Shown: one piece after another, positions 2,830-53,183 of the stretch
Layout of the letters: every line of letters begins with the position of its first letter
How positions within the stretch are numbered: position 1 is the first letter of the stretch
Origin: Mucilaginibacter rubeus
GTDB taxonomy: Bacteria > Bacteroidota > Bacteroidia > Sphingobacteriales > Sphingobacteriaceae
Direction of reading: 5' to 3'
NCBI RefSeq assembly: GCF_014643835.1
Contig: NZ_BMKD01000001.1
Location: forward strand, 1,178,001-1,242,000
DNA: 64,000 nucleotides
Notes under the pieces: generated by a model
Database searches by the model: none
The model's input: only the letters and a program-made list of their open reading frames with translations
What the model was told of the DNA's origin: nothing
Program-made: the position numbers and the translations under genes

Positions 2830-4626
2830 CTATGACAAAAATCCGTGCAATAAATTAATCAAGAACAAAACATCTGATAATTCAATCTGCCTCTTCGCCG
2901 TATTAACATCCCCGGTATCATGAGCCGCGAGATTACTTCGCAAATAATTTAGTTCAATTAGTTTCTTAATTCTATCATTGTCTAGATTAAATCTAAACTT
3001 TAATACGGCAACCGTCTTAAATAAGTTTGTTATTTTATTCAACCTTGTACTTTGAAAAACAACGTCTATAATATTTGTTTCAGTATTATTCTGGAAATCA
3101 AAATACCCCCGCTTTAATTCAAATTCAGCCCACAATTCCTCTCCGGATGAGCGAATGACATTTATAATATTCGAATCCTTAGTTTCAACCCCGCCCGAGG
3201 CTATAAAATAAAAAGTACAAAGTTTCTCAAGTAACTTGTAAGCATTTAGAAATGCCTCCGACAGAAATATGCTTTTAGAGCCTTCCGTAAGCGCAAATAT
3301 CTTGTCAGGAATTCCACCCTTGCCTACGATTCTGTCGCGGAATTCTTTTTTATCAGCATTCGTCTCGGTACTAAACAATGATGTAGCTTTGATTTGTCGT
3401 ATCGTATTATATAGAGAAGCAAGAAAACTCTTAGCAACAGCATCTTTTACATGAGCTGAGAATTCTTGGAATAAAGCGTAACTATCATTTCTAGTTAGAA
3501 CCTGTTCAGGAGATTCTTTCAATATGTATCGATTTACCCCTAATTCAGCTGCCCTAGTAACATTTTCTGCCCTTTTGGAGGCAGTAAAAATTATGATTTG
3601 AACACCTTCATTTATCCTTTTAATCTCTTTAATTAATTCAAACCCGCTCAGTTCGCTTCCTTCTTTTTTATCAAAGTCGTCATCGCACAAACGGAGATCT
3701 ATAATGAAAACATTAAAACCATTTTCAATAAGTTCAGCGATTTTTTCTTTAAGCCTTTTAAGTAAGTCGACTTTCTGCTCTCCTTTAGGAAATTCTGCGC
3801 AATAGTCGAATCTGCCGGCATTCGTGTACTCTTTAAAAATAAATTTGGAAAATAGATTTCCCCAGCCTTTTCTTTGTTCATCGTCAATGTAATAGACTTT
3901 CGCAGAATCTTCGGGACTAAATGGAATGAGTAATGGCATTTTCTTTTTTTCCATTTTAAATGACTGCCTTTGTTCTCGAACAGTAGATTTCCCCTCTAGA
4001 TATTTAAAATAAAGAGTCTCTGTGGTTTGAATAAGGCCCCAAATTTCGTCGCGATCTACTTCCGAAAGATTTTTTGCCATATCTGTCCAACGCAAAATTG
4101 ACCACTCATTCGTAATCGAATGATGGGTTTGATAATTGGCTGGCGGGGCTACTCTAATTTTCTCGATGAAATCAACATAGCTACCAAGCGAATGTATTTT
4201 TCGCTCTGCCATCAGTTTAATAAAGTTATCATACGCCTGACTTGTGTCTTTTATGAGATAAACACCCTCTGTAAAAAGGATATCTGCCAAGTCGGTTGTA
4301 CGACCAAGGAAATGATATGACTCCTCTCCGACAAATACTATAGGCGTGGCAGATTTTCCTTCCAAACTTTTACTAAGCCGAATATGATAAGCCAATCGCA
4401 AGCCCAGATATTCTAAATAATTTTCAGACAGCGCAATTTTTATAAAAATCACATCCGATTTTAATATTTTATTTCGTAGGTCGCCTCTATCAAGTTCCGC
4501 AGTTATATAATGATCAATATCAAAAATATTTGCACCCGGATTAAATACGAATTGTTCGCCCGTCTCAAAATTAATTCCGTCCAGCAATATGCTTTTTTGG
4601 CTATGTATAAGTAGTTTATTGATCAT
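2830..4626 (-). CDS. Pseudo-receiver + receiver + HEPN-like protein, candidate effector of retron operon
   Basis: 598 residues. Residues about 50-130 resemble a receiver fold whose phospho-acceptor position is replaced (IFIKIALS). Residues about 243-385 form a complete response-regulator receiver: Asp248/Asp249, phospho-acceptor Asp310 (FIIDLRL), Thr348 (IIFTAS) and Lys370 (YILKES) are all present. The C-terminal 200 residues are helical and end with RSNLAAH (Arg563 to His569), the R-x4-6-H signature of HEPN ribonuclease-like domains. Receiver domains are normally switched by phosphorylation, and HEPN domains in defence systems often cleave RNA. A receiver-gated RNase effector is therefore my inference. 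Its start overlaps the stop of the upstream gene by 4 bases (ATGA), so it is translationally coupled to the retron RT operon. Confidence 0.75.
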   Translation of the reverse strand: MINKLLIHSQKSILLDGINFETGEQFVFNPGANIFDIDHYITAELDRGDLRNKILKSDVIFIKIALSENYLEYLGLRLAYHIRLSKSLEGKSATPIVFVGEESYHFLGRTTDLADILFTEGVYLIKDTSQAYDNFIKLMAERKIHSLGSYVDFIEKIRVAPPANYQTHHSITNEWSILRWTDMAKNLSEVDRDEIWGLIQTTETLYFKYLEGKSTVREQRQSFKMEKKKMPLLIPFSPEDSAKVYYIDDEQRKGWGNLFSKFIFKEYTNAGRFDYCAEFPKGEQKVDLLKRLKEKIAELIENGFNVFIIDLRLCDDDFDKKEGSELSGFELIKEIKRINEGVQIIIFTASKRAENVTRAAELGVNRYILKESPEQVLTRNDSYALFQEFSAHVKDAVAKSFLASLYNTIRQIKATSLFSTETNADKKEFRDRIVGKGGIPDKIFALTEGSKSIFLSEAFLNAYKLLEKLCTFYFIASGGVETKDSNIINVIRSSGEELWAEFELKRGYFDFQNNTETNIIDVVFQSTRLNKITNLFKTVAVLKFRFNLDNDRIKKLIELNYLRSNLAAHDTGDVNTAKRQIELSDVLFLINLLHGFLS

Positions 4627-5258
4627 ATTGATTCCGAAATTAAAGTATTCAACTTAACATAAAACTCTTCGATTTGGTCTTCATTAACAGGGCTAAAGTC
4701 TGGTTTATTCAACCATTCTAATTTAAATGAAGTAATCAATTGCTGTTTGATCTGATTGTTAATTTTGAGATCCCATATTACTCTAATGCTATGGCGCTGC
4801 TTCAAATAATTTATATCATTACGTAGGCGAAGAAGTAATGTCAAACGCCACCTCGTTCCGAATTGAAGCAGCAACAAATTAATACTCCCAGTATTCCGAA
4901 CATCCTCAATGAACAGTGTTAGATTAGAATAAAAATCTTTCGAATTTATTTGTAAATATTTAAATGCCGTATCGTTATAAACACTGGCTGTAATTCCTCC
5001 AGAGAAGAATACTAATGGCTTAGAAATTGAACTACAATAATCTGTGAGCAATTCAATTTGCTTTCGATCGAAGGCAGAGCGATGGGCTAAAATACATTGG
5101 TAATCTGTTAAAGACTCAAATTTGCCTTCAGAAAATAGACTATCGATTTTCTGAAAATCAACACCTGAGATCAGGGTCAATTCGTGCAAATCGGAAATGT
5201 TTCCGGTAAAGAATCTTTGCATTCGATCCGTTCTGTCCTCTATTAACGCAATTCTCAT
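4623..5258 (-). CDS. Degenerate receiver-like (pseudo-REC) protein
   Basis: 211 residues. The first 125 follow the receiver layout: a beta-strand ending in acidic residues (RIALIEDRTDRM), a third strand where the phospho-acceptor Asp is replaced (CILAHRS), and the Ser/Gly strand (PLVFFSGG). It is therefore likely a non-phosphorylated receiver used for protein-protein contact. The helical C-terminus (about 125-211) is unrecognised. It overlaps both neighbours by 4 bases, so all three genes form one transcript. It could bridge the RT and the receiver-HEPN protein; that role is inference. Confidence 0.65.
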   Translation of the reverse strand: MRIALIEDRTDRMQRFFTGNISDLHELTLISGVDFQKIDSLFSEGKFESLTDYQCILAHRSAFDRKQIELLTDYCSSISKPLVFFSGGITASVYNDTAFKYLQINSKDFYSNLTLFIEDVRNTGSINLLLLQFGTRWRLTLLLRLRNDINYLKQRHSIRVIWDLKINNQIKQQLITSFKLEWLNKPDFSPVNEDQIEEFYVKLNTLISESI

Positions 5259-7360
5259 TTATAAAAAGTAAAAAGATAAGTAAAGCCAACGGCATATTGA
5301 ATAGGCTCGACTGAAGCAGTGTTAGGATCTGACGCTAAAAAATTTAGTCGATAACTTCCTTCAGCAAATTCCGTCTCTATCGACCAATCGCATAGGTTGT
5401 TCAGCCTTTTTTTTATTGTACCGAAATCACCTTTTGTAAGCAGAAATTTTTCACTGGCTATCGAGACACCGCGAAGTCTTGAACCATAATTGATGATTGC
5501 TAACTGATAATATGATGGATCATCAATCAGACGATAACCAACCAATTTCTCATTACCTGGATATTTAGCAATGTTTCCAAAAACCAAATCCAAGGCTTTA
5601 TGCAGGTAATCTACGTCAGTATAAAAGTTTTTATCGTTTAGATTAGTGAATTCCATTATTTCGAAACTCTGCAAATGCTTAAAATGATAATCGTATATCA
5701 ATTCTTCGAGTACTGGGCCATCATTTCTTATCTCGATTTCATTTTTGAAGATGTCTATTACTTGTTTAAACTTCTGGATTGTCTGTGTTCCCCCTCGCTG
5801 TGAAGTAACTCTGAATTGCGCATGTTCTGGCAAAACCATATTCTCCGGCATCATCTCTGGCGTTCTTTCCATTGCTTCTTTCAGTTCTGGAGAACTCCAC
5901 CCAAACCTGACCCGACGCATGCCCCATTTTATTCCTACACGCTTGTTAAAAAGAAAGGATAATATCTTTGCTCTTAATTGCGGATTAAGCTCGTTCAATG
6001 AGCTGCTAACAACGTTAAATTCTTTTTTTGCCTTTCTAATAAAATCCGGATAATTCTTAAATATTTTATCATCTAATCCTGCTTCCCAACTATGCGTAGC
6101 AAATTTCAGTGCAGATTCATTAATTGAAAACATCTTAAGAATTTTCACTACCTCGAGCGGGGTGTGTAATACCGGCAGGCCGTCTATAACAGGCACTGCG
6201 ACACAATTCGGTTCAGCAGTATTCTGATTTTGCAATTCTTCCTTTACAATGTCTGTCAGAATTTCAAATCTTTGATTAAGTTTAAAAAAAGTTGGGTCAT
6301 CTTTTCCTTTGACCATCTTTAAGAAGTCCAATTTCCCTCTGATTACTTTTGCCATGACTGGATTTGTTGCACCCAAGTAACCTTTATCGGCCGAATATGC
6401 CGATTCAAAAAATACACTTGCTTTTTTATAACCGTAATTCTCCCAGTAATAAAGCCATTTACGCAAATCTTTGATATATCTACGCTGGACGTTAAGTTTA
6501 CTGTTTACAACTAAACCTGTTACTTCCTGCCGATATCCCCGCTTCTGTAACCTCGTTTTTGAATATTTAATATAAAAGCCATGATCAGTTATCTGCCTTT
6601 CCAACTCATTGATAAATTCACCTTCTTTTTGATAAACGAAATGAGAAGAACTGAACGTAATATCGTCAGCATATCGACTGTAGGTCAACCCAAAGCGCAA
6701 AGCTACCCTGCCTAAATAATAATCAAGCTGCTGGCAAATGATATTAGTTAAAACTGGAGATGTTGGAGCTCCTTGAGGCAATACGTTACGCACTTCTTTC
6801 AGCCATGCCCCATCTTCTCCTTTTCGCTCTACAATCATGCTTTGACAGCATAAGCCAGCAATTAAATTAGCCAGTTCGTGCCTACCTACACTACCATTTA
6901 ATTGGAATGGTTTTACTTTTAGGCGCGCCCAGATACGAGCCTGATCAACCCCTGTAAAAAAGTCCTTGAGATCAATATTATAAACGTAAGCTTTTCCAAT
7001 GTGTAAGTGGGCATTATCGGCGATAGAACGACCTGGAACAAATCCGAAAGCATGTTCATCGACATCATAAAGCGCTTGCAAGATTATATTCAAACAACGC
7101 TGAATCACCTTTAATCCCTTATTAGGTGCATGAATAATTCGGCTCCCACCTGATTTTTTTTTTATAGAAAATTTAATATATCGTCGGTTGTTATTCGCGG
7201 GGTTTGAATGGTAATTTAGACTTTTCAACACAATCGGGTGAAACTTCTCACCATACAGAATATTTTTCACGTAGTTCAACAAAGTCAAAAAATCTTTTTT
7301 TGACTGCATTTTTCTAAATGATTTCCTAATATATTCTACTTGGGGTTTTTGAAGCTCCAT
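5255..7360 (-). CDS. Retron-type reverse transcriptase with C-terminal GHKL-like extension
   Basis: 701 residues, about twice the usual retron RT. Residues 1-370 hold the RT: the retron signature NAHLH (116-120), first catalytic Asp130, QGAPTSP (196-202), catalytic YADD (230-233) and the retron VTG motif (270-272). NAxxH and VTG are the sequence features that separate retron RTs from group II and DRT enzymes. Residues about 380-560 are unrecognised. Residues about 560-680 resemble a histidine-kinase-type ATPase fold: VFGNIAKY (593-600) matches an N box and IINYGSRL a degenerate G1 box. This part is a weak-pattern inference. The two overlapping downstream genes carry receiver-like domains, which fits a kinase-like partner. 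A candidate ncRNA lies just upstream. All RT catalytic residues are intact. Confidence 0.9.
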   Translation of the reverse strand: MELQKPQVEYIRKSFRKMQSKKDFLTLLNYVKNILYGEKFHPIVLKSLNYHSNPANNNRRYIKFSIKKKSGGSRIIHAPNKGLKVIQRCLNIILQALYDVDEHAFGFVPGRSIADNAHLHIGKAYVYNIDLKDFFTGVDQARIWARLKVKPFQLNGSVGRHELANLIAGLCCQSMIVERKGEDGAWLKEVRNVLPQGAPTSPVLTNIICQQLDYYLGRVALRFGLTYSRYADDITFSSSHFVYQKEGEFINELERQITDHGFYIKYSKTRLQKRGYRQEVTGLVVNSKLNVQRRYIKDLRKWLYYWENYGYKKASVFFESAYSADKGYLGATNPVMAKVIRGKLDFLKMVKGKDDPTFFKLNQRFEILTDIVKEELQNQNTAEPNCVAVPVIDGLPVLHTPLEVVKILKMFSINESALKFATHSWEAGLDDKIFKNYPDFIRKAKKEFNVVSSSLNELNPQLRAKILSFLFNKRVGIKWGMRRVRFGWSSPELKEAMERTPEMMPENMVLPEHAQFRVTSQRGGTQTIQKFKQVIDIFKNEIEIRNDGPVLEELIYDYHFKHLQSFEIMEFTNLNDKNFYTDVDYLHKALDLVFGNIAKYPGNEKLVGYRLIDDPSYYQLAIINYGSRLRGVSIASEKFLLTKGDFGTIKKRLNNLCDWSIETEFAEGSYRLNFLASDPNTASVEPIQYAVGFTYLFTFYK

Positions 7361-7378
7361 GCTTGGTTAAAAATGCAC

Positions 7379-7609
7379 TTCGAAGCTCACCATCTTTTTC
7401 TTTGTGTATGCAACACCGAATCACCCGTATAATGGTATGGCTGGAAAGCATATAATTTATAAACTATCAGGTAAATAAGTGTAACCTGTATAAAATTACA
7501 GTGTTCACTTTCAGTTATCGGAAAAGCTATGCCTTACAGATAACTGCCTGCCGATTTTTCGACCATAGCCGAACAGCAGACATATTTCAAAATTTTGATG
7601 AGCTTCAAA
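7379..7609 (-). ncRNA. Candidate retron msr-msd RNA
   Basis: The RT gene is preceded by a 373-bp non-coding gap, where retrons normally encode their RNA. Two complementary 11-mers, 7599-7609 and 7379-7389 (10 of 11 match), could be the a1/a2 pair and enclose 231 bases, a usual retron size. Inside are a hairpin with perfect 8-bp arms (CAGTTATC/GATAACTG on the minus strand, about 7513-7546) and a longer AT-rich hairpin around CAGGT/ACCTG (about 7450-7495) that could be the msd stem. An alternative outer pair is TTTTTCTT/AAGAAAAA (7689-7696 with 7395-7402), followed directly by TTAGC, which resembles a retron branching-G context. Boundaries are therefore uncertain. Confidence 0.5.
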
Positions 7610-7733
7610 GAACATATGCGAATAATCAGCCAACTTTACAGTAGCTGCACAAATCTAATCAATAAAGTTATAATTGTCCTCTAACGCTAAGAAAAACCTG
7701 CAATACACCAGAGCATGCGAGTCTATTATCTAA

Positions 7734-8771
7734 TCAGGATTTCACAATGACCTCAACGTCAAAAGTATGCTCATTTTTATTTCGAATTCCATTCAAGTCG
7801 TGAAAATTTGCGATATCCCTCGTCTTTTTATAAGGATCCCAAACGAAGCAAAATAACTTTTTTAGCCATTTACACTCATGGTACGACTCGAAATCCACCT
7901 TTAATTGCTCAATGAAGTGAGTTTCATTACTGTCAGCTGACTTGATCATTTTTACTTCGATAAGAATGTCTTCCTGCCTCAATATCAAATCTATTTTAGT
8001 TGATTTGCCCCCAACCTTTGGTATCGGGTCTTCATCCCGTAAAAGGGGAAAAACACATTTCAAAATGACATATAATATGTCTTGAACGTCATATTCGTCC
8101 ACGATTGCATATGCAGGATGACCTTTTCGTCTTTCCTTGACAACTTTTTGTACGGCGTTACTAAAATTATTCAATATATCCCTAACCATCTCTTCAGCCT
8201 GCTTATTTAGATATTTCACCTTCAATAATACAGATTCAAGATCTTCAAACAATATCTGCAATTGAAAATCTGGTTCTACCTTTGACAAATAAAGTATAGC
8301 ATTATCTAAGTCCTGCTCATGACAAACAGAGATATTTAGTATATATCTTATTACAGTTGAAATCGGATCCGAAGTGCGACTGTTTACCTCTTGAACCAAT
8401 AGCGCTGTATAATCCGGTGCGAGCTTAGCAATAAAATATTTTTGTTTCAGCTCGCTTTGCGCAAACTTCTGGTCCATCACAGATTTTAGTCCTATATTAT
8501 CAGCTAGATATAGTCCCAGAAATTTATAAATATTGGATGTCGCATCCATACCTTTTATTTTGGGTTTACTGACAATGCTTTGAATCACCTTACTTTCAAT
8601 ATTTTCCTGCTTATAACCTTTCAACGCAACTTCCTCGTCCGGCGTTAGCTCAAAATTATTATGAAAGAGTTTTTGAGGCGAAGCGATCGCCAAATAAGCC
8701 GCCAATTCAATATTTCGATTTTGGGATAGCCGACGTAGGTTTTCGAGAATATATTGTCTTAAATAAACCAT
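7734..8771 (-). CDS. PD-(D/E)XK nuclease, pAgo-associated effector
   Basis: 345 residues. The C-terminal third has a restriction-endonuclease-like core: Asp261 in KIDLILRQ and Glu272-x-Lys274 in IEVKMIK, the D...ExK arrangement. It is followed by EQLKVDFESY and LFCFVWDPY, as in the DpnII/MboI-like nuclease domain seen beside Argonautes. The N-terminal 200 residues are helical and unrecognised. Its start overlaps the Argonaute stop by 13 bases, so the two are co-translated. Inactive long Argonautes of the B group are known to activate co-encoded nucleases after guide-directed target recognition, leading to abortive infection. I infer the same here. Confidence 0.8.
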   Translation of the reverse strand: MVYLRQYILENLRRLSQNRNIELAAYLAIASPQKLFHNNFELTPDEEVALKGYKQENIESKVIQSIVSKPKIKGMDATSNIYKFLGLYLADNIGLKSVMDQKFAQSELKQKYFIAKLAPDYTALLVQEVNSRTSDPISTVIRYILNISVCHEQDLDNAILYLSKVEPDFQLQILFEDLESVLLKVKYLNKQAEEMVRDILNNFSNAVQKVVKERRKGHPAYAIVDEYDVQDILYVILKCVFPLLRDEDPIPKVGGKSTKIDLILRQEDILIEVKMIKSADSNETHFIEQLKVDFESYHECKWLKKLFCFVWDPYKKTRDIANFHDLNGIRNKNEHTFDVEVIVKS

Positions 8772-10759
8772 AATTTATCGCTTACTGCCTTTAGTCTATC
8801 AAAATCCCAACCATCCACTTTCTTTAATTCTTCAGTCATTTTCGCCATCAAAGATGGATACATAATTGTTACTGTTCGCTTCGACGGCATATAACTGCGA
8901 TGCGATAAATGTGAAAACCAAAAAACTTGCTTCGCAATGTAAAACAAGCTTGTAAAATCTGATCTCTTGTCTATGTCAATCTTTAAGGGTAAATCACTCT
9001 TAGGAACAAAATGTAATAACGCAGAATGACGACTCAATTGAATATATGTACCTTGTCTGATGTCAGATATTCCGTCATTGGAGTACACGCGATAATTATG
9101 ACCATATCCTAAATGGACAAGGGCAAACTCAAAGTTGTATGCAACCAAGCGATTCTTTAAATTTTCGATTGCTTTTATTTCATATTCTTCACTGGCGGAT
9201 TTGAACAAATGAAAGATTAAACGAAACTTTCCAGTTTTACTCATTTCTTCAAGTAGAGGGGAAAGTGTCTTAAATAAATGATTCTCTAGACTTACAGGAT
9301 AGGTAGCGAATGTGGACAACGGTGAACAATCTCCGGTCATATATCGTCCGTCGTTGTGAAAAACTTGGGCGATCCCTAACACAAATTCCCCGCTATCAGA
9401 AACCGTAGAGCCTATGCCTATCACAAGCTCATCCCTTAATCGGTCTTCTTTTTCAATCGTCCAGGCTGTACCTCCTAATTTTGCGTAGGTATTCAAAGCG
9501 ATATTCGTCATTGTGAAATTACTCAAATTTTGACGGATCGTTTCAATTTGAATATCCTGAGTAGGAATACCGTTACCAATCAGCTTTGCTTTGCATACAA
9601 AATATGGTGAAAATTGAGGCTGGAGTTTTTCTTGTGCTTCGTTTACAATGACATATACGAGTTGACATTCTAATAAATCATCTTCATAAAGTCTTTCTTT
9701 GTAGCTATCTAAATCTGTTCCGGAAATAGTTTTGAAAACGAATGAAAGGGAATTAAAATGAAAAGTTTCCTTCAATTTGTTTTCGATCTTTCTAACGAAC
9801 CCTTCAGTTTCACCTTGATAGGCTGCCGGACAAATTACACCTATTTTCATTGCCTTATGCTGATAAAGTTCTAATGAATAAGGTTGGTAAGCTTGAACCA
9901 TTTTATCATAATAAATTAATCCTTCAGTATTTTTACGATTGCTGTAAAAATATCTTTGAGGTTTTCCGATAACTTCGGACTTGATAATGTCAGTATCAAA
10001 TGGTAAGTATTTTCGGCTAATTGATTTGACTCTTAAACCAAATGGCATAACAATATTATCCCGATTTTTATGCAACCATTCCTGAAAGCCAATTATGATT
10101 TGAAAAACTTTGCTGTTTTTGTTTTCTTGAATAACTGCTTTTTCGTATATTTCTCTAACGCCACGAGAATCTAGAAATCGCTTAATAGATGAGAGATTTG
10201 CAAAAATAACATCTTCGTTGCCCTTTAGTCCAGTTGTATCTATTCCCGCAATCGCAAATTCATCTCGTGACCATGTGAAGGTATTTTTAAGCGCTGCCGA
10301 CAGATTAAATCCAAAAAAAAGACGATCTTCTTTAAAAAAGAAAGTAGTTGAAAAGTGAACAACCCGGTTTAAAGATAACCCTCGGATATTATCGTTTAAA
10401 AGATCCTTTTTGGCGATAATTTCCCAAACATTAGCGTGCTTGTTCCTGAATATTCGATAACTACCGCTTTTAGCAATGAGTTCAATTAGGGCAGTTTCAA
10501 ATATTTTAGCCAGTAGTTTCGGTTTGTCTTCAATATTAGCACTCGTTAAACTGGCGCTAGCAGGCAACACAGCTTGATCATTTTTTGGCCACATATGTAT
10601 AAGGCCCTGATCTCGATAGAACCACCAGTCACGATACTGCTCTTTTAAATTTTTAAAAGCTTCTTTTGTCGCAAACAAAGAGTAAGGAAGGGTTGGGAAA
10701 TCGATAGGGCCAGTTGCTGGTATATCGAGGTGAAAAAAATTCAGAAACAGACCACTCAT
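8759..10759 (-). CDS. Prokaryotic Argonaute, long type, catalytically inactive PIWI
   Basis: 666 residues. The MID domain starts near residue 300 (KIGVICPA) and keeps the 5'-phosphate pocket pattern: Lys390, PTQ (399-401) and Lys427 in YAKLGG. The PIWI domain runs from about 445 to the end, but the first catalytic Asp is absent (IGIGS at 447-451) and the second region reads FHLFKSASEEYE instead of a DG motif, so target slicing is not expected. The 300 N-terminal residues leave room for N and PAZ-like parts, which points to the long-B group. It probably uses a short nucleic-acid guide to sense invading DNA or RNA and signals to the overlapping nuclease gene downstream. No genes for guide production are seen. 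Confidence 0.85.
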   Translation of the reverse strand: MSGLFLNFFHLDIPATGPIDFPTLPYSLFATKEAFKNLKEQYRDWWFYRDQGLIHMWPKNDQAVLPASASLTSANIEDKPKLLAKIFETALIELIAKSGSYRIFRNKHANVWEIIAKKDLLNDNIRGLSLNRVVHFSTTFFFKEDRLFFGFNLSAALKNTFTWSRDEFAIAGIDTTGLKGNEDVIFANLSSIKRFLDSRGVREIYEKAVIQENKNSKVFQIIIGFQEWLHKNRDNIVMPFGLRVKSISRKYLPFDTDIIKSEVIGKPQRYFYSNRKNTEGLIYYDKMVQAYQPYSLELYQHKAMKIGVICPAAYQGETEGFVRKIENKLKETFHFNSLSFVFKTISGTDLDSYKERLYEDDLLECQLVYVIVNEAQEKLQPQFSPYFVCKAKLIGNGIPTQDIQIETIRQNLSNFTMTNIALNTYAKLGGTAWTIEKEDRLRDELVIGIGSTVSDSGEFVLGIAQVFHNDGRYMTGDCSPLSTFATYPVSLENHLFKTLSPLLEEMSKTGKFRLIFHLFKSASEEYEIKAIENLKNRLVAYNFEFALVHLGYGHNYRVYSNDGISDIRQGTYIQLSRHSALLHFVPKSDLPLKIDIDKRSDFTSLFYIAKQVFWFSHLSHRSYMPSKRTVTIMYPSLMAKMTEELKKVDGWDFDRLKAVSDKLWFI

Positions 10760-11051
10760 GAAATTAAAAAGATAGGGTTTAGCCCAGTTATAAAAATATG
10801 AATTTAATATTATTCGATTAAAAGAAAAATATTTCCTCTCAATTATGTGATAATGTTATCAATCGATTATTTGTCCATAAAACGATGAGTTTAAGTACCA
10901 CAGTTTTTGAAGAAAAGAAATCTATACTTTGACAAGTAATGATTAGACAAATCTATTCAATACACTGTTAATCAAATAGTATCTACATTAAGCCCCAGCA
11001 ACCAAAGGCAAAAACTCTCTAACGTAAATTATTGATTGTCTCCACTAAACA

Positions 11052-11081
11052 CGGCGACCATGGCTTTTGCCATGGCCGCCG
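11052..11081. repeat. GC-rich 13-bp hairpin
   Basis: The arms 11052-11064 and 11069-11081 (CGGCGACCATGGC against GCCATGGCCGCCG) pair at 12 of 13 positions with a four-base loop. There is no adjacent U-run, so it is either a second stop signal or an unrelated palindrome. Confidence 0.45.
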
Positions 11082-11134
11082 AAAATGCAATATATCCCAA
11101 CCGGTAACACATGAAATAAAATACATGGGAATAA

Positions 11135-11164
11135 AACCCGGTTGGTAGATTTACTAACCGGGTT
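11135..11164 (-). terminator. Rho-independent terminator of the 11173-12075 gene
   Basis: The arms 11135-11147 and 11152-11164 pair at 12 of 13 positions (AACCCGGTTGGTA). On the minus strand the stem is followed by TTTTATT. It sits 8 bases after the stop of the minus-strand gene. Confidence 0.75.
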
Positions 11165-11172
11165 CGCCCCTC

Positions 11173-12075
11173 TTACCAGTTTTGCTTTTTGACAAATGTT
11201 TTTATCTCCTTCAGGCTGATCTTATGACAGCCTACCCTAATAAAATCCTTATTAATCTCTTCAACTCGGTATTTGTCCATAAGTGTCATGTTGCATTCAG
11301 TACATCCACCATTATTGATTGCCTCGATAACAAAGCCATAAAAACGCTTGGCAATGGCTTCAGGAATTTCAACGCGTTGTGAAGTCTGTACTCGTTTGCT
11401 CTTCGAGTCAAAGCGAAGATAATCGAAGCCGATGCGTGTTTTGACATAAGTGGTTTTGAAGGCCCGCCAATCCTTTAGTTGTGCCTGATGAATTTTAAAA
11501 TCCCGCTTGTATCTCTTTTCTTCTTCCACCTTCCTGAAGGCAGCTTCTTTCTGAACAATCGCCGAATACTGATCTAAATTCTGAATAGCACCCGCCTCGA
11601 TCAGATTTTCAGGAACCGCCAACCCATAAAATTCTGCATATTTTTCTGCGTCACTAAACACGCCTCTGATCTGCGAAACATATTTTTCCGGCTTTCTTGC
11701 TGTCTGAAGATTACCGGCAATCACCTTTATCTCTTCATACCACTTTTCGAAAACTTGTTCATGATCCATTCCCGCCACAGGCACCCGTAGTTGCGTCAAA
11801 TGGTTGGAGGCGCTTAAAACGATATTCACTTGCCCATTAGTAGTATTACTATTTTTTTCACGGGTAATAATAACCGCATGCTGTCCCCTATCGTTTTGCG
11901 TATGATAACCGATCAGAAAATGTGAGCCATACGACCAGATGCGGTCGTTTTCAAAGTAAAAGTTCCCTGAAGCTGTACGTGCATCGCTCTGAGAGCGGTT
12001 TGCCCAAAGGTGGGCAACGGTGTGTTTGTCAACTACTCTTTTCATCCTGTTCTGCCTTAAGTGTTTAGAAATCAT
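11173..12075 (-). CDS. Hypothetical protein of mobile-element type
   Basis: 300 residues, soluble. The first 90 residues (VAHLWANRSQSDARTASGNF, then WSYGSHF and AVIITREKNSNTT) resemble a short domain I recall from phage and plasmid hypothetical proteins of Bacteroidota, but I cannot name it. A long basic helix lies around 170-205 (AAFRKVEEEKRYKRDFK). The C-terminus has a Cys pair (GGCTECN) near 258. It has its own terminator and a long untranslated upstream region. It is probably accessory-element cargo; the function is unknown. An alternative start at Met11 is possible. Confidence 0.7.
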   Translation of the reverse strand: MISKHLRQNRMKRVVDKHTVAHLWANRSQSDARTASGNFYFENDRIWSYGSHFLIGYHTQNDRGQHAVIITREKNSNTTNGQVNIVLSASNHLTQLRVPVAGMDHEQVFEKWYEEIKVIAGNLQTARKPEKYVSQIRGVFSDAEKYAEFYGLAVPENLIEAGAIQNLDQYSAIVQKEAAFRKVEEEKRYKRDFKIHQAQLKDWRAFKTTYVKTRIGFDYLRFDSKSKRVQTSQRVEIPEAIAKRFYGFVIEAINNGGCTECNMTLMDKYRVEEINKDFIRVGCHKISLKEIKTFVKKQNW

Positions 12076-12585
12076 TTCGGCAAAAGCCTCAATTGGCCTT
12101 TGATAGAGGCAGAATATTTGCGCGTGGGGCGGGTGAACAATGCTGACTTAAAAAATACTACCCGCACGAAGTAAGGCGTGGAGATTTTTTAAAGGTCACT
12201 TGCATGGCATTGAGAGCCGAAGAGGTATAATTTCGCCTCAGGCAAAGGTCAAATGAAAGACTCAGTTAAACACAAATGCCATTGAAAAGAAAACTCCAGT
12301 AATTGTTCGGCAGGTATATAAATTGAACTGCATCCCGGTTTTAGTACCGGGCGCAGCACCCGGAGGGCATCGGTTTAATTTTGTACCTAGCTTCGAATCT
12401 TCAGACATTTTGAAAAGTCAGGTATACCAATAACCTGTAATATTGCCAGAATATCAGTAGTATCTGTTAGTGGGCTTGATGAGAAAACATCAGGTCTTAC
12501 GAATTAAATAGTTAACAATAATTGATATCGTAAAAAGTGCATTAGAAAACAGCCTGACTCATTTAAATTTGCGGCCACTAAATAA
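12076..12585. other. 510-bp stretch without a gene
   Basis: It separates divergent genes. It includes a small GC hairpin around 12334-12350 (CCCGG/CCGGG). No coding frame is supported. Confidence 0.5.
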
Positions 12586-15703: not shown

Positions 15704-17383
15704 ATGCATATTATATTTCAATTCCCGATTACTGATTTACGGCTGATTAAAGATGAGGGGCTGCGCCTAGTTCGGCCATTTTGGACTTCGCCGGATATTG
15801 ACAGAACCAGGCCCTTTATCAGACAATTCGGGAGACTTAGAGACCGTAAAAACGGAGGCGTCACCGGGTGGCCTGCGGAAGAACATTACTGCGATGCCAG
15901 ATTATCGATTAAGTACAAGGATATACATAAAAGCGGATACGTTATAGATGAAGGAGAAAAGGCCATCATATATAAAACTTATCGCAGATTGTATTCTGAT
16001 GGAAAATTCATGAATAAAATTGAACTCGGCTTTTTCGATGACATTGAAGAAAGACTTAAACTCAAGAGGCCGGGAATGCTAATAAAGTTAATCGACGTTC
16101 TTAAACATTACAGCAACCTTCCTATTCAAATTGACGGCGACACAGTTCAATTGGCGGGATCCGGCCCGAGGCTCCGTGATAAATTCACTCAGGCTACCAC
16201 CTATAAAAGCAAATACACAAAAACGATTAACAAACTCGTTGTAGACGGGCAGCTAAATATCACAGTTGTATTAACGTCAAACGATAATATAGAGCTCCCT
16301 GAAGATGCACGTTTAATAAACGAGTATCGGGTATCACAAAAAAAGATTTGTCTTTATGGATGGAAAATGGAGCTACCGCAACGAAGTGTAAAAGTCTGGC
16401 TGATCAAAGTTTTTAAAGATACGGACAAGCTTCCTAAAGAAAATCCTGTAAAAACCGTCGTTAGAAACCTGCGTATCAACCTGGCGAGAATCCATGCTGA
16501 AAGGGAGACGCTGAGAATTTTACTCTCCAATATTATGAACGGAACGCTTCCGTTGGAAGCAGGCAGTAACGAGGCAAAACTGGTTAAAACTTATGTAAAA
16601 AAGATTACTGCCAAGCTTTTTGCAAAAAAGAGAAATAAACTGGACCAAGAAGACATATTGCGTTTTGCGCTCGCAAGTGAAGAACTCGTGTTGCCGGGAA
16701 GCCTGGAATCATTGAACGAAACGGCGATCTCGTTCAACGATAAATACACAAAAAATGCCATTAAAAAAATGGCCGATGAATTAGAGAATAGTAAGGTGTC
16801 AACGATCTTATATCTCACCTCGAGCCCTAAAGATAAACAGCTTCTTGACATTCAGCGCGAAATTGGAATGATAAAGGATAAACATATAAGTGGCCTGCAT
16901 CGCGATAGGTATAAAATTGAATTTGAACCGAGTGTAAAGAAAACAGATTTACTCTCGTTGCTTAACAGATATAAGCCAACGATCTTGCACATATCATTAC
17001 ATGCCTCAAAAGTCGACGGCCTGTATTTTGAAGGTCCGGATCACCAACCGGCTCCATTGTCGGTTAAACAATTCGAAGATGTCATAAAAATCTATAATAA
17101 AAATCGCTCATTAACGGCAATTATTTTAAGCGCCTGCAACTCAATTAATCACGCAAAGGCCGCCCTGCCATTTTGTTCTTATGCAATGGGCACAAATGCA
17201 GCTATTCCGGACGAGGCAAGCCCATTATATGCAGAAGGATTTTATAATATATTATTCAGCTCTGCACCCCCTGTTTATACTTTCTGTCACGAATCGGCAA
17301 TATTGAGAATCCAGCAAGCTGATTTGGAGTCGCCTGATGACAGACCCATCGATCAAATGTTTGAACTTTTAACTAATCCATAA
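15704..17383 (+). CDS. CHAT (caspase-like) protease, partner of gasdermin
   Basis: 559 residues. The C-terminal 200 residues form a CHAT/caspase-like domain: strand STILYLTSSP (366-375), catalytic-type His433 in LHISLHAS, and Cys478 in AIILSACNS, followed by the conserved small-residue strand YAMGTNAAIPDEAS. The N-terminal 330 residues (FGRLRDRKNGG, WPAEEHYCDAR) form an unrecognised domain that may sense infection. It ends 4 bases before the gasdermin gene, so the two form an operon. Bacterial gasdermins are activated by cleavage by a neighbouring protease, many of them caspase- or CHAT-like. This gene is therefore the likely activator. The start codon is weakly supported; the ATG directly follows a terminator. 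Confidence 0.85.
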   Translation: MHIIFQFPITDLRLIKDEGLRLVRPFWTSPDIDRTRPFIRQFGRLRDRKNGGVTGWPAEEHYCDARLSIKYKDIHKSGYVIDEGEKAIIYKTYRRLYSDGKFMNKIELGFFDDIEERLKLKRPGMLIKLIDVLKHYSNLPIQIDGDTVQLAGSGPRLRDKFTQATTYKSKYTKTINKLVVDGQLNITVVLTSNDNIELPEDARLINEYRVSQKKICLYGWKMELPQRSVKVWLIKVFKDTDKLPKENPVKTVVRNLRINLARIHAERETLRILLSNIMNGTLPLEAGSNEAKLVKTYVKKITAKLFAKKRNKLDQEDILRFALASEELVLPGSLESLNETAISFNDKYTKNAIKKMADELENSKVSTILYLTSSPKDKQLLDIQREIGMIKDKHISGLHRDRYKIEFEPSVKKTDLLSLLNRYKPTILHISLHASKVDGLYFEGPDHQPAPLSVKQFEDVIKIYNKNRSLTAIILSACNSINHAKAALPFCSYAMGTNAAIPDEASPLYAEGFYNILFSSAPPVYTFCHESAILRIQQADLESPDDRPIDQMFELLTNP

Positions 17384-17387
17384 GCAA

Positions 17388-18182
17388 ATGTCCATCGCAC
17401 TGAAAAATATTTTTGCGGAACACGGCTACAATCTTGTTTCTTTGCCAAAGAGCGATATCAAGCCCCTGTTACTTTTATATAAAGTAGGCAGCGACGTGTC
17501 CTCCGCCCAAAGCCAGGTAACTACGCTTTTTCCTGCTGATGAAATACCAGCGCCAGCCATTAAAAAAAATATAGATGTTATGCCAATCGTGGGTAAAGCT
17601 GAGGTCGCCTTCGATGCAAAAGCCGGTTTAAATTTCCTGGAAGGCTTATTGTCTAATTTTAAAAAGGGAAAGGCCGCGGCGAAAATTAAAATCAGCGACG
17701 AGGATGTGCTGACGTTTTCGTTTCAAGATATAAAAGAAGACTCAATAGACTTGTTAGCCCTTGACAGATTTATTAGCGGCACAGCTCCTGACATCTCACG
17801 GTTTACTGCCTTTGGGGAAAAATTAAAAAAAAGCGAACTATTTATTATCAATGCGGTATTAAAAAGTACTTCCTTCACTATAAAAATCACTGACAAAAGT
17901 GGTCAGGACGTCGATGTGGAGGCTCAAATAAAAGGTATGGCAGAAGCTAATGTAAAAATGTCCAGAGCTAAAAACAATTCAATTACCCTTAGCCATAAAG
18001 ATGAGCAGCTGCCTTTAATATTTGCATTCAGAGCACAACGAATTAAATATGACCAGCCCGCATTTTGGAGTACAAAAAAAGCCAAATTCAGGATTATAGA
18101 TCAGCCCGATGTCGTTTTAAGGGATACCGGAAATATCGTTACTGAACCACTCTTGTTAGGTTTATATACTACGGAGCTTTAA
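17388..18182 (+). CDS. Bacterial gasdermin pore-forming protein
   Basis: 264 residues, the usual length of bacterial gasdermins (about 250-280). The N-terminus has their hallmark (GYNLVSLPKSDIKPLLLL, then a YKVGSDV turn and LFP), followed by a Pro/Ala linker and alternating amphipathic strands with small helices. The last 20-30 residues after the beta-rich part may be the inhibitory tail removed by proteolysis. The N-terminal cysteines that are palmitoylated in some family members are absent here (MSIALKNIF). It lies 4 bases behind the CHAT protease gene, the classic arrangement. After cleavage it should insert in the inner membrane and kill the infected cell. I recognise it from pattern, not from a search. 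Confidence 0.82.
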   Translation: MSIALKNIFAEHGYNLVSLPKSDIKPLLLLYKVGSDVSSAQSQVTTLFPADEIPAPAIKKNIDVMPIVGKAEVAFDAKAGLNFLEGLLSNFKKGKAAAKIKISDEDVLTFSFQDIKEDSIDLLALDRFISGTAPDISRFTAFGEKLKKSELFIINAVLKSTSFTIKITDKSGQDVDVEAQIKGMAEANVKMSRAKNNSITLSHKDEQLPLIFAFRAQRIKYDQPAFWSTKKAKFRIIDQPDVVLRDTGNIVTEPLLLGLYTTEL

Positions 18183-18980: not shown

Positions 18981-20519
18981 TCAGGTGCGCATATATGCAG
19001 GAATTGTTGCGCTGCCTATAGGTAATGATCGCGTTTTATCGAATTCTTTCACACTCTCCTCGTGAGAGATCGCGATAGCGGAATACATGATCGCAGCCCT
19101 CGTGAGTTTTAGCAATTTCATCGTTTTTTGTTCAAAAGCAGAACGCGAGATCGAGTACGAAATATCCGGTTCCTTAAACCCATCGGAGAATTCGGGCGTG
19201 TCAGATACAACCTTAAATCCCTTATGCTCAATATAGTTTCGTATGGCAGCGATCTCCTTCGCGTCCGGTTCAAGTACAGTATCGAAATCGCTATCTTTCT
19301 CATAAAGGTCTTTGCTTAACCAGAAAAGCCCGCGGAGCGCCCAGTTCTTACTTTCTTCGAACGGAGCTTGGAGCCGTTTCTTATTGATATACCACAAACT
19401 TCTAAAACTGACCTTGTTCAATTCGATATTTAATCCCATGTAGTCATTAAGGAGATATGCTATCTTGTCCAGGATTGAATAGCTCAGGCGAAATGCGATT
19501 TTCAATTGTTCAACGTAATAAGAATAACGAACCATTTCCATAGTTTCAACCAGGGGGGTATCAAGATCTGAAAAGTGGATTAGCCCTTTAGAAGCGGAAG
19601 TATAATAACTATATCTTGCTGTAGCATATTCTTGTTTGATCTGGTTAAAAAGATTAAGACATACCGGCGGGCGATTAGCCGGCAATGTAACTGTCGGCAA
19701 ATTAAGGCAGTCGTGACATGCTATCCTATGAGGCCCGAGATCGTTCAAAGGGTTAATGAATAGCGTATTGGACAAACACCATAAACGATATTTATTCAGC
19801 TCCTCATCGTCGCCCATATCGTAGTTATCCAATTCCGGATAATCACGCATATATTCGTCCGGAAAGTTACTACTGATATAGATCCTCAATGAATCATGCA
19901 TGCTTTGAAAGCCCGATGCCGCGTCCGGATGAAGGCTCTTTTTATTTTTCAAAGCCTGTATAAAGTGATGGTAGGCATAAACCAGAAAAAGATTAGAGTG
20001 GACCTGGTCGTATAGCGCCCGCCCGTAATAAAACAGTCCATTGGCCATATTGCCAATGGACATGGCAAAATCAGGCGTGGCACGTAAAGCCTGTTGAAAA
20101 TACTCCTGGGCCTCCACAAATCTCCCCATAAAGGAAAAGCTGTTTCCCAGATTTGTATATATCTGACTCTGCCGCCAGCCTTCGACTCGGGAAAAACCGG
20201 AAGAAGCGATAGCTTTTCTCAAATAAAATATCTCCTTCGTCAGCTCTTCCATTTGGAACAGCCAACTATCCTGTGATTCATGGTATTTGATCTTACGGTA
20301 ATAACTCCACCCATTTGCAAGATCATAAAATAAAAGAGTCTGTAATTCGGGGGCAAGAGCTTTCATGTTAATTTGTTTGGAAAGATTGAATGCGTATTCC
20401 AGACCATCTAACCTTTTTTGGTCAAATGAAAGATCTAACAGAGACCCGATAATATCTATCTGTTGCCTCTGCGATTTACCCTCTATTGTGATCGTCGTTA
20501 AGTCTTCTTTTAATTCCAT
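18981..20519 (-). CDS. TPR protein with C-terminal LA2681-like HEPN domain
   Basis: 512 residues. Residues about 85-200 contain TPR-like hairpins (YTNLGNSFSFMGRFVEAQEYFQ and further repeats). The C-terminal part (about 330-490) matches the LA2681-like HEPN family: NYMGLNIEL, SLWYINKK, NWALRGLFWLSKDL, then IRNYIEHKGFKV with the RNxxEH signature near 430, and a closing helical segment. LA2681-like HEPN proteins with TPRs are widespread in defence islands, but their mechanism is unclear to me. It ends 100 bases upstream of the shorter HEPN gene and follows the AbiU2-like gene after 15 bases. Confidence 0.75.
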   Translation of the reverse strand: MELKEDLTTITIEGKSQRQQIDIIGSLLDLSFDQKRLDGLEYAFNLSKQINMKALAPELQTLLFYDLANGWSYYRKIKYHESQDSWLFQMEELTKEIFYLRKAIASSGFSRVEGWRQSQIYTNLGNSFSFMGRFVEAQEYFQQALRATPDFAMSIGNMANGLFYYGRALYDQVHSNLFLVYAYHHFIQALKNKKSLHPDAASGFQSMHDSLRIYISSNFPDEYMRDYPELDNYDMGDDEELNKYRLWCLSNTLFINPLNDLGPHRIACHDCLNLPTVTLPANRPPVCLNLFNQIKQEYATARYSYYTSASKGLIHFSDLDTPLVETMEMVRYSYYVEQLKIAFRLSYSILDKIAYLLNDYMGLNIELNKVSFRSLWYINKKRLQAPFEESKNWALRGLFWLSKDLYEKDSDFDTVLEPDAKEIAAIRNYIEHKGFKVVSDTPEFSDGFKEPDISYSISRSAFEQKTMKLLKLTRAAIMYSAIAISHEESVKEFDKTRSLPIGSATIPAYMRT

Positions 20520-50846: not shown

Positions 50847-50879
50847 AACAGATCGCCCGGAAAAACCGGGCGATCTGTT
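50847..50879. terminator. Bidirectional terminator between convergent genes
   Basis: The 14-bp arms AACAGATCGCCCGG (50847-50860) and its complement (50866-50879) pair perfectly over a 5-base A-loop. It overlaps the stop codon of the minus-strand DUF262 gene and ends the plus-strand ferritin-like transcript. Confidence 0.85.
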
Positions 50880-53181
50880 AACTTTGCAAAAGCTCCTGAC
50901 AGAGCTGGACGAGGGACTGGATACGGTCAACTCCCTCCTCTTCCTGTAATAAATAATTTTTTCCAACCGATTGCAAACGGTATTGCTCAATCATTTCAGG
51001 GGTAACCCTACCCTTCTGAAGTTCCTGTACTAACCATCCTTTTTGCTGACAGTAGATTTGGACACGCCCCTTCAACCGCAAATGGCTGATGCCGTCCGAG
51101 AAACGGCCAGGGATGAGTGTTACCTTCTTGTGATTCAACAGATTCTCCACAGCAATAAGATATGGGTTGATGTGATAGGATGCCAGCGGGTGTTGACCGG
51201 AGTTACCGAGGCTGTTAACATCGAAGCCAAGGTCGTCAGCCCAGGTGAACAAATTAAACGTTTCGTAAATATGCGCAGTTAACTGATAATACTTAATAAA
51301 GTAATAGCGGAAATCCATAGCTCCATGATAACCGTCGATTAATGCATTTAATTTTTCGGTTGTCGTCCCCCTTAATGCGGAAAGACTTGATAGAAAGGTG
51401 TTGAGGATTGGCCTGATGGAGGCCTGTTCCTTTTCGAAGCCGGTTGTCAATATCCTGCCCCAGTTCCCCGCCGAACCGAAATACCATATATCCCCAAGGC
51501 GTGACCCATTGTGCGTTTGGATAGAAAAATCACCGCAGGTTAACATGCCCCGGATAATTCGGGAATTGTGAACCTCCGGGTTCCAGGTTTGATAAAAAGT
51601 TTCTGCGAGCAATGGAATATCTGTTTGCTCAAAATCCAAATTATCAGTGATCCCCTGGAGTTCAGGATGGTCTTCCAAACGCTGAATAGCCATTTTATTT
51701 GAATCGTCTTTCAACAGGAAGCCCGTTTTGTATTGTTCCGGACTGAGCACACCCCTGGTAAAGCCCTTGCCGCTATATCCGGCTAGAACTTCGTAAATCC
51801 TTTTCCCGTCATTCACTTTGATCTCGCTTGTGAAACCATGAATAAATTCACTATATTCATGAAAATCCGGCAAACGCAAATTTGAAGTAAATTCTATCCG
51901 TTTCCTGGAGTTGACTTGTCGAACGCGGGTCAAAAGGTTCCGGACGATCCTGATAAAATCTTTCAGACGATCTAAGTCTTCTACACCAAAGGTAATTATG
52001 TAGTGAAGAAGAGCATAAAGCAGGATCCTATTGCGGATATCAAAGCTTGCGCCGTTCAAGCTGCGTTCAAAAAGATCTGTGCTGCCAGTTTCGAAGAGGC
52101 TAACACGCCCGGGTATATATGAGCCTTTATTGCTAAATATTTCGCCGAAGAAATCCCGGGTTGCAGAAAGGCCGGAAAGCACATCTAGGGACCTGAACAA
52201 AAACAGGGTATTTTCCTGTTTACCATAAACATCCTTTACCGCATCCTCGAACACAAAAGCGTCAGCTTCCGTACGGTCCTTATAGTAGAGCATTTCGGTG
52301 ATATAACTTAGATAGTTGATCGTGCCGTTATCAACATTCACAGTCATCCTTTTATCCCAAAATAAATCCATCCACTTTCCATCCGCTTTGATAGAAAAAT
52401 AATCTTTGTAAGAGACTGCAACCCCCTCATAGGGCAGGCGCTCATTCTTATAATCTGATTGTGCAAGAAGATCTATAAACTCGGCCTTGAAATTCTCAAA
52501 CGGGGTCAATGCCTTGCCGCGCGAATTCATTTTAATATATAGTTCATCGGTAAGACGGAACTGCTCAGACTTAATATCGATAAACTCAAAAGTAATCGAG
52601 TCCTTACTAGTTAGTTTAGACCAGATGCCGGATGTGGTTTGAAAACTTTCGTGAATGGCATCCAGCATACTGAGCATAGACTGGATCGTAGGATCATCCT
52701 GCCAGGCGGACATAAACCAGGGTTGATCAATAATTCCTGCACTTAACTTTCCAGCCGCATAGCTGACCGACCGGTTAACCAGGCGATCACAAAACCGCTG
52801 TGACGACAACCGTGTTTTATAGGTAAAACGGGAGAGTAATTGCTTCAACAATAAAACAGAATCGGCGTCCTCGTTCAAGGTATTAAATTTTTGTTCCTTG
52901 ACAGCGATATACCAGTGTAGTAAAAATAAGGTAGTCAGGCGCTGCTGTCCGTCAAGCGGAACAAATAAGTCCTTGCCTTCTGTATACCCATAAACAAAAT
53001 CAAGGTGCAATCGTCCCTCGTCTATCCCATCAGACGATGGTTCACTCAATACCTGTTTAAGCTTAGATACAAAATTCTTCCTGATTGTACCTGCTGTTTC
53101 CCTGCCTTGTGCATAATCCCTTTGGATAAGCGGGATTGAAACCTGGTAGTTATTTAAAAGTTCGTAAAAAGTAAATCTCAT
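50878..53181 (-). CDS. DUF262-domain protein, second of a tandem pair
   Basis: 767 residues. The ParB/Srx-type DUF262 core shows IPLIQRDYAQG (16-26) and PLDGQQRLTTLFLLHWY with DGQQR at 77-81, the nucleotide-binding/hydrolysing motif of GmrSD-type enzymes. The rest is helical with a beta-rich tail and, unlike its neighbour, no clear DUF1524 HNH motif. It begins 2 bases after the neighbour's stop, so the two are one operon. Likely a DNA-modification-dependent restriction pair, by analogy with GmrS/GmrD; substrates are unknown. Confidence 0.8.
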   Translation of the reverse strand: MRFTFYELLNNYQVSIPLIQRDYAQGRETAGTIRKNFVSKLKQVLSEPSSDGIDEGRLHLDFVYGYTEGKDLFVPLDGQQRLTTLFLLHWYIAVKEQKFNTLNEDADSVLLLKQLLSRFTYKTRLSSQRFCDRLVNRSVSYAAGKLSAGIIDQPWFMSAWQDDPTIQSMLSMLDAIHESFQTTSGIWSKLTSKDSITFEFIDIKSEQFRLTDELYIKMNSRGKALTPFENFKAEFIDLLAQSDYKNERLPYEGVAVSYKDYFSIKADGKWMDLFWDKRMTVNVDNGTINYLSYITEMLYYKDRTEADAFVFEDAVKDVYGKQENTLFLFRSLDVLSGLSATRDFFGEIFSNKGSYIPGRVSLFETGSTDLFERSLNGASFDIRNRILLYALLHYIITFGVEDLDRLKDFIRIVRNLLTRVRQVNSRKRIEFTSNLRLPDFHEYSEFIHGFTSEIKVNDGKRIYEVLAGYSGKGFTRGVLSPEQYKTGFLLKDDSNKMAIQRLEDHPELQGITDNLDFEQTDIPLLAETFYQTWNPEVHNSRIIRGMLTCGDFSIQTHNGSRLGDIWYFGSAGNWGRILTTGFEKEQASIRPILNTFLSSLSALRGTTTEKLNALIDGYHGAMDFRYYFIKYYQLTAHIYETFNLFTWADDLGFDVNSLGNSGQHPLASYHINPYLIAVENLLNHKKVTLIPGRFSDGISHLRLKGRVQIYCQQKGWLVQELQKGRVTPEMIEQYRLQSVGKNYLLQEEEGVDRIQSLVQLCQELLQS

Positions 53182-53183
53182 GA

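Follow-up and report, generated by a model that had tools for sequence, protein, structure and literature searches.

What does a retron do with the proteins of a two-component-like system? The question is raised by a three-gene operon of Mucilaginibacter rubeus, located on the minus strand at positions 2830 to 7360 of the window (the whole 64,000-nucleotide stretch analyzed here, positions 1,178,001 to 1,242,000 of contig NZ_BMKD01000001.1). Retrons of known mechanism hold a toxic effector directly in check. In this operon, a 701-amino acid (aa) retron-type reverse transcriptase (RT) with a C-terminal extension is followed by a 211-aa and a 598-aa protein, the three open reading frames (ORFs) overlapping by 4 bases each at exactly the coordinates given in an original prediction made from the sequence. 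That prediction read the genes as a relay from a retron through a kinase-like domain and a receiver to a HEPN RNase. The relay is supported by our analysis, which adds a covarying non-coding RNA (ncRNA), co-occurrence of the genes, fusions between them, and the exchange of the retron for other sensors. We consider it probable that the retron senses infection and that its output is a two-component-like relay instead of a toxin under its direct restraint.

The components of the operon

In the 701-aa protein, an RT of retron type is fused to a HisKin-conflict domain (HK). Its RT domain (residues 1-395; 6176..7360, minus strand) has all of the originally noted motifs intact, NAHLH at residue 116, QGAPTSP at 196, YADD at 230, and VTG at 280, and matches RVT_1 in Pfam with an E-value of 8.6e-23. 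Among the matches listed, the best PADLOC models were those of retron XI (2.1e-97), retron XII (5.2e-94), and retron I-C (5.4e-87), while the PADLOC RT_IX model was weaker (2.3e-45) and the best PDB match was Retron Ec67 (E 3.1e-35). Assignment as a defense-associated RT (Drt2 model, 1.6e-8) or as a group II intron RT (4.1e-18) was rejected, as both models scored far more weakly than the retron models. In 27 RTs from loci with the same gene module, the YxDD and TG motifs were present in all 27 and NAxxH in 25. The PADLOC matches on the 701-aa protein stop at residues 301-389 (best 25 of 52 families).

The remainder of the protein (residues 398-701; 5255..6169, minus strand) is accounted for by HK. 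Residues 398-700 match the Pfam family HisKin-conflict, PF22561, with an E-value of 8.9e-57 and a score of 193.5 bits (cut-off 27), and the same family was matched by all 26 HK members at E 0.01. The HK alignments (A4 and A6) are trimmed to the HK part and do not hold the fused proteins whole. An H-box-like histidine, His423, is kept in 26/26 aligned members and in 7/7 outside the alignment, and Lys539 in 26/26 and 6/7, respectively (positions 43 and 159 of the HK excerpt). His423 may be the histidine of an H box, with a phospho-role.

The 211-aa protein, which we call MID (4623..5258, minus strand), has no Pfam match. When its family profile was compared with 46 canonical receivers, hhalign returned an E-value of 2e-6 (probability 89.5), against 0.12-0.52 for unrelated control pairs, in agreement with the receiver-like character first proposed for it. 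Comparison with a smaller set of 8 receivers gave 0.018, and the best PDB profile match, RcpA (0.66), was not significant and of the expected kind. MID has no phospho-acceptor Asp: His59 aligns under that position in 21/21 aligned rows, and was also found in 5/5 sequences outside the alignment. By profile comparison, MID is a receiver homologue in which His replaces the acceptor Asp.

The 598-aa protein, RR, is an effector/response regulator (2830..4626, minus strand) with an iREC domain at residues 30-125, a receiver at about 240-380, and a C-terminal HEPN-like region containing R563-x5-H569. It matches iREC (PF22563, 2.2e-23) and Response_reg (PF00072, 3.8e-9); across the family these models were matched by 18/24 and 23/24 members, respectively, and the iREC profile compared with 46 canonical receivers gave an hhalign E-value of 6.8e-7. 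The key residues had been numbered correctly from the start (D248/D249, D310, T348, K370, R563, and H569). D248, D249, D310, A349, K370, R563, H569, H81, H169, N173, and K208 are identical in all 24 RR rows, and position 348 is T in 14 rows and S in 10. In RR proteins outside the alignment the receiver residues are kept in 8/8 and the HEPN R and H in 7/8; the R-x4-6-H spacing is likewise kept in 24/24 aligned and 7/8 other proteins. Conservation of the receiver and HEPN residues both within and outside the aligned rows argues that the motif is not due to chance. The C-terminal region is probably a HEPN RNase. The RR alignment (A3, 24 rows) was made without L016 and L024, where RR is split, and alignment A5 (21 rows) without five fused MIDs; all module alignments omit L003.

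An Rfam scan of the window found no family at gathering score, and the retron ncRNA was therefore found through comparison of loci. It is an element beyond those mentioned in the original prediction. Retron ncRNAs are built of an msr-msd region enclosed by a1 and a2 arms, and the candidate (7361..7613, minus strand, ends approximate) immediately precedes the start codon of the RT and fits this anatomy. On the minus strand its a1 arm, GTTCTTTGAAGCTCATC, occupies 7597..7613 and pairs with the a2 arm in the 3' part of the ncRNA (7375..7394), the cognate duplex having an energy of -25.9 kcal/mol. Following a1 is a conserved ATTTTGA (7587..7593), whose G is a candidate branching guanosine. Stem-loop 1 of the msr (7546..7581) is a covarying helix that is also present in the minimum free energy (MFE) structure; stem-loop 2 (7513..7545) was taken from the MFE structure and varies in sequence among loci. 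Comparison of loci further revealed a conserved CATAMACAAAGAA-like box preceding a2 (7397..7410). The MFE of the window ncRNA is -76.8 kcal/mol, with a z-score of -5.42 over 200 shuffles. An RNA of this form would be expected to give rise to multicopy single-stranded DNA (msDNA).

Pairing of the arms was assessed in 30 of 52 RT loci, using a 28-base 5' arm and the 52 bases that immediately precede the RT. The 5' arm was picked by the motif GTTCTTTGAA with at most 2 mismatches, or by eye in L010 and L011. Omitted were the repeats L003 and L013, loci without the motif, and L021, L033, L036, L040, L047, and L050, where the motif distance was doubtful or the RT start unsure. All 30 cognate duplexes reached -10 kcal/mol or below, with a mean of -23.9 kcal/mol; shuffled 5' arms averaged -9.2 kcal/mol, and 36% of them also reached -10. 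The window a1 ranked its own a2 first of 30, its non-cognate duplexes having a mean of -11.8 and a best of -18.0 kcal/mol. Overall the cognate duplex ranked first in 17 of the 30 loci, near relatives having similar arms, and the poorest ranks were those of L023 (9), L026 and L037 (7), and L028 (6, at -11.0 kcal/mol).

The structure was also examined in an alignment of 21 loci. The 24 named pairs, which exclude stem-loop 2, were formed in 86.7% of cells compared to 75.3% in shuffled alignments, and 14 pairs and 59 cells had changed on both sides. None of 500 shuffles attained any of the five measures, a comparison in which related rows can exceed shuffles even without structure. Slid structures dropped to 36-48%, a control biased in favor of the structure, which was derived from one row (L004). 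The a1/a2 helix was paired in 77.4% of cells in its outer half and 93.7% in its inner half, and the helix of stem-loop 1 in 96.5%, with double changes in 5 of its 6 pairs. Within the ATTTTGA box, G26 and A27 were invariant in 21/21 loci.

Distribution of the gene set and exchange of its sensor

Searching genome contigs with a profile of the RT alignment yielded 48 RT loci, and in 24 of these both MID and RR lie beside the RT. The original prediction was to be refuted if, among other outcomes, the three genes were not conserved together; in roughly half of the clade of RTs they are. RT and HK are fused in the window and in 11 of the 24 loci, and in the other 13 HK has its own ORF following that of the RT. 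MID shares one ORF with RR sequence in 5/24 loci, and on two Chryseobacterium plasmids RT, HK, MID, and RR are four genes. Among plasmids, the HK query and the RR query each matched two Chryseobacterium records and no others. Among viral contigs, the RT query matched one relative without the module (L001) and the RR alignment matched none.

In 13 of the 48 loci, two of them identical copies, the module is replaced by a gene of 232-319 aa that is HEPN-like, with an R-N...HR-type motif. It is directly downstream of the RT except in L006 and L013, where another ORF lies between. For 13 members of this kind in the same RT clade (L001, L006, L007, L015, L017, L020, L021, L025, L028, L033, L034, L041, and L044), a single PADLOC match (0.028) was found, and Pfam gave weak single matches such as HEPN_Apea (0.0045). 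The gene is possibly another unlisted retron effector. Comparison of the RR C-terminus with these single-gene partners produced a weak hhalign match (E 4e-4, probability 35) in register at the R..H motif, which agrees with a shared HEPN end point without proving it. Nine further loci have other neighbors, and two (L009 and L026) are cut by a contig end. Repeats in the collection are L013, which equals L006, and L133, which equals L014; L003 and L022 come from one species, and the RTs of L048 and L049 share 98.9% identity. In the case of L006 and L013, a Pontibacter arcticus scaffold carries a 16,137-base retron region twice in identical form.

An RT tree of 50 rows (L003, L013, and L049 omitted; the long-branch rows L051 and L063 uncertain) required at least 6, 7, and 7 changes of the labels HK-fused, HK-split, and HEPN-like, respectively, even when well-supported branches only were counted. 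Nevertheless, almost no shuffle gave labels as clustered as those observed. RTs of one kind have therefore been joined more than once to the relay or to the small HEPN-like partner.

We also searched for the HK family alone in genome samples. HK was found in 2 of 395 Bacteroidota genomes, one being the seed, and over the cut-off in 5 of 291 genomes from the order (7 at E 0.001). The six distinct Bacteroidota genomes over the cut-off (that of L004, and L063, L132, L133, L134, and L135) all have an RT. Four genomes were added by the HK-only search (G385, G1100, G1152, and G1213), with MID unmatched in two. Two weak HK matches in the order sample were rejected: L138 has no module profile, and the L139 protein looks by eye like a methyltransferase.

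In Campylobacterota, HK occurs in 2 of 200 genomes and in 4 of 150 from one family, two of these being the same genomes, and one of the four has an RT (L027). In L061, two hydrophobic segments around approximately 150 residues precede HK, followed by MID and RR. In L136 and L137 it is ankyrin-like repeats, recognized by eye, that accompany HK, again followed by MID and RR, with L136 cut by a contig end. HK was found in 0 of 398 Pseudomonadota genomes, a result that does not prove its absence there. The HK-MID-RR output core thus exists without a retron, although its partner in the Bacteroidota genomes sampled is the retron. Because the core carries a membrane sensor or ankyrin-like repeats in three Campylobacterota genomes, our data suggest that a two-component-like switch, whose output is probably a HEPN RNase, can be fitted with different sensors, of which the retron is one.

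A search for the iREC domain alone matched 5 Bacteroidota genomes out of 395, three of them above the cut-off; L062 is among the matches. In L062 a 613-aa protein has a receiver and matches iREC and, below the Pfam cut-off, DUF4145, and the stretch examined has no RT-profile match. The same locus (4279-12567) encodes a 1181-aa protein without a Pfam match but with an H-box-like SHNIGSH stretch, its gene adjoining those of a 243-aa protein, the iREC/DUF4145 receiver, and a further 701-aa protein. These genes are perhaps a related kinase-based system without an RT.

A proposed relay to the HEPN region and its alternatives

If the retron signals through the relay, the RT-ncRNA/msDNA particle would be the infection sensor, and here the RT covalently carries the HK domain. 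Phage would disturb the msDNA particle, and the change would be passed to HK and would alter the phosphorylation of Asp310 in the RR receiver. The phospho-state would then assemble the active site of the HEPN region (R563/H569) or unlock it, and the resulting cutting of RNA, perhaps tRNA, would stop growth and so protect against phage. Docking or threshold functions are likely for the pseudo-receiver MID and for the iREC domain. Receiver phosphorylation often favors dimerization, and HEPN RNases work as dimers; the phospho-state would therefore be expected to switch the HEPN site. This reading rests on the conserved receiver chemistry and on the exchange of sensors, and adjacent components are linked by fusions (RT-HK and MID-RR). 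We put forward its most specific form only tentatively: a His-Asp relay in which perturbation of msDNA would drive phosphotransfer from an atypical HK without canonical ATP motifs to the receiver, whose phosphorylation would dimerize a HEPN RNase, with the His-bearing pseudo-receiver as relay or threshold. The output would be a plug-in that has been swapped several times with the small HEPN-like partner on one and the same RT-ncRNA sensor and is found with membrane or ankyrin-like sensors elsewhere.

Several observations weigh against a relay of this kind. The kinase step is its weakest link, because the ATP motifs are degraded. The original prediction likened the RT extension to a GHKL ATPase, and its N box (VFGNIAKY, residues 593-600) is indeed present; the N-box Asn is kept in just 4 of 26 relatives, the window included, and is missing in 22. 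The G1 box is degenerate as described, the position being mostly His-x-Asn-Ser with no DxGxG. No HK member matched HATPase_c (PF02518) at E 0.01. Against a set of 31 canonical HATPase domains from four genomes, HK gave a weak hhalign match (E 9.7e-4, probability 22, with unrelated controls at 0.06-0.6) that was in register at the N box, and its best PDB profile match, YycG (E 0.16), was not significant and of the expected kind. The HK Lys residues vary outside the alignment, with K39 of the excerpt kept in 5/7 and K159 in 6/7. The HEPN region is assigned from its R-x4-6-H motif; 1/24 RR members matched a HEPN model of Pfam (0.0072), and the RR of L137 has no HEPN motif. Two RT-HK loci, L134 and L135, have no MID by profile. 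Finally, the RT does not need the module, since in 22 of the 48 loci another partner, or none that was recognized, accompanies it.

These points leave room for a switch that is conformational only, in which HK is a dead-kinase scaffold, the RT-msDNA complex holds the receiver-HEPN protein inactive as other retrons do with their effectors, and phage triggers its release without phosphotransfer, the receiver serving for docking or as a nucleotide-dependent switch. The degraded ATP motifs and missing HATPase_c matches would fit such a switch, as would the 13/48 loci of the same RT clade in which the small HEPN-like gene replaces the module. It also has a parallel in the type IX retron-Kva2, where, according to the excerpt of PMC13405049, a HEPN dimer is restrained by the RT, the ncRNA, and a winged-helix protein with no kinase. 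The receiver active site, however, is kept in 24/24 aligned and 8/8 other RR proteins and the H-box-like His in 26/26 HK members, and membrane and ankyrin-like sensors are found on this core as well. It would be unexpected for a mere scaffold to retain every one of the receiver and His residues, which weakens the conformational explanation, and we regard it as rather doubtful. Alternatively, the phosphate could come from elsewhere, HK being a phosphatase or phospho-relay (through His423 and MID His59) and infection removing a basal phosphorylation, made by another donor, that keeps HEPN off. The conserved His residues in HK and at the MID acceptor position, together with the degraded ATPase motifs, are in keeping with this idea, but no other kinase-like gene was recognized among the three operon genes, and we consider this speculative variant improbable.

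A more radical alternative is that two independent defense systems stand side by side, a retron without a known effector and a HisKin-conflict system. The HK-MID-RR core does occur without an RT, and there is a precedent that also counts against the relay: in the excerpt of PMC12548924, a HipA/DUF3037 pair beside the RT of Retron-Sda1 defends without RT or ncRNA. Retron-Sda1 thus resembles the window in having a retron RT beside kinase-type genes; as described there, its kinase is HipA-like rather than a histidine kinase, is encoded by a separate gene, and acts without the retron. Independence of the Sda1 type is unlikely in the window because RT and HK are fused. The two are one protein in the window and in 11 of the 24 loci found through the RT, the genes of the operon overlap by 4 bases, and 6/6 distinct Bacteroidota genomes over the HK cut-off have an RT with HK. 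We therefore consider independent systems highly improbable, and chance adjacency of two systems was rejected.

Known systems and genomic surroundings

The retrons with the nearest RT models, XI (RT-protease), XII (RT-TIR), and I-C (RT-Toprim), are likewise single proteins with a C-terminal effector, and, like retrons in general, they have an ncRNA with a1/a2 arms. Unlike in these, the RT of the window is fused to HisKin-conflict and followed by two receiver-containing proteins, and PADLOC and Pfam scans found no protease, TIR, or Toprim match in the operon. HisKin-conflict/iREC systems (PF22561, PF22563) share the same domains, and their receiver-HEPN-like output also occurs without an RT (L061 and L136); unlike these, the window has a retron RT-ncRNA as its sensor. 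Burroughs and Aravind reportedly predicted histidine-kinase-based immune systems in 2020 (J Bacteriol). We know of no retron type with an HK-MID-RR module. AbiA, to our knowledge, lies outside the retrons and lacks both a receiver and a kinase. In the excerpts of PMC3710099 and PMC8934634 its RT is fused to a C-terminal HEPN domain, and it resembles the window in having RT and HEPN in one defense system. The excerpt of PMC13405049 presents a HEPN RNase as the effector of retron-Kva2, which is thus similar to the window in having a HEPN effector in a retron operon. As described there, Kva2 lacks a canonical HEPN motif and is partnered by a winged-helix protein, whereas in the window the motif is canonical and is preceded by a receiver and a kinase-like domain; no PADLOC match was found for the 211-aa and 598-aa proteins, and these partners are receivers and not the type IX set. 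A figure legend in PMC13092281 places HATPase and REC among predicted defense systems, with no tie to retrons in the part seen.

Among the literature matches listed, no title or abstract beginning mentioned a histidine-kinase or receiver retron, which is not proof of absence. The HisKin-conflict and iREC domains are already in Pfam and are not new. As far as the literature was searched, a retron with a two-component-like output appears to be a new combination of known domains.

The window is a defense island. The retron operon is immediately preceded, also on the minus strand (7734-10759), by a pAgo gene (PADLOC PDLC02395, 4.7e-278) and an overlapping gene for a helical DpnII/MboI-type nuclease. 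A gasdermin gene (PADLOC bGSDM, 7.9e-53) follows one whose product matches the PADLOC 'chat' model (5e-13) at 15704-18182 on the plus strand, and from these matches the two are likely a gasdermin-protease defense pair. At 18981-20519 (minus) is a tetratricopeptide repeat protein with an LA2681-like HEPN domain (2.6e-65), likely a further RNase effector, and at 50878-55043 (minus) are two neighboring GmrSD-type restriction genes (GmrSD_N, 2.2e-17 and 1.7e-29).

A phospho-signaling layer of the kind proposed here is normally used for gene regulation. In this operon it sits between a retron sensor and a predicted RNase, and it also occurs with membrane and ankyrin-like sensors. If the relay operates as proposed, phospho-control of an abortive-infection RNase would be directly testable, retrons could gain graded or reversible control, and RT-ncRNA sensing would be modular enough to plug into a generic signaling output.

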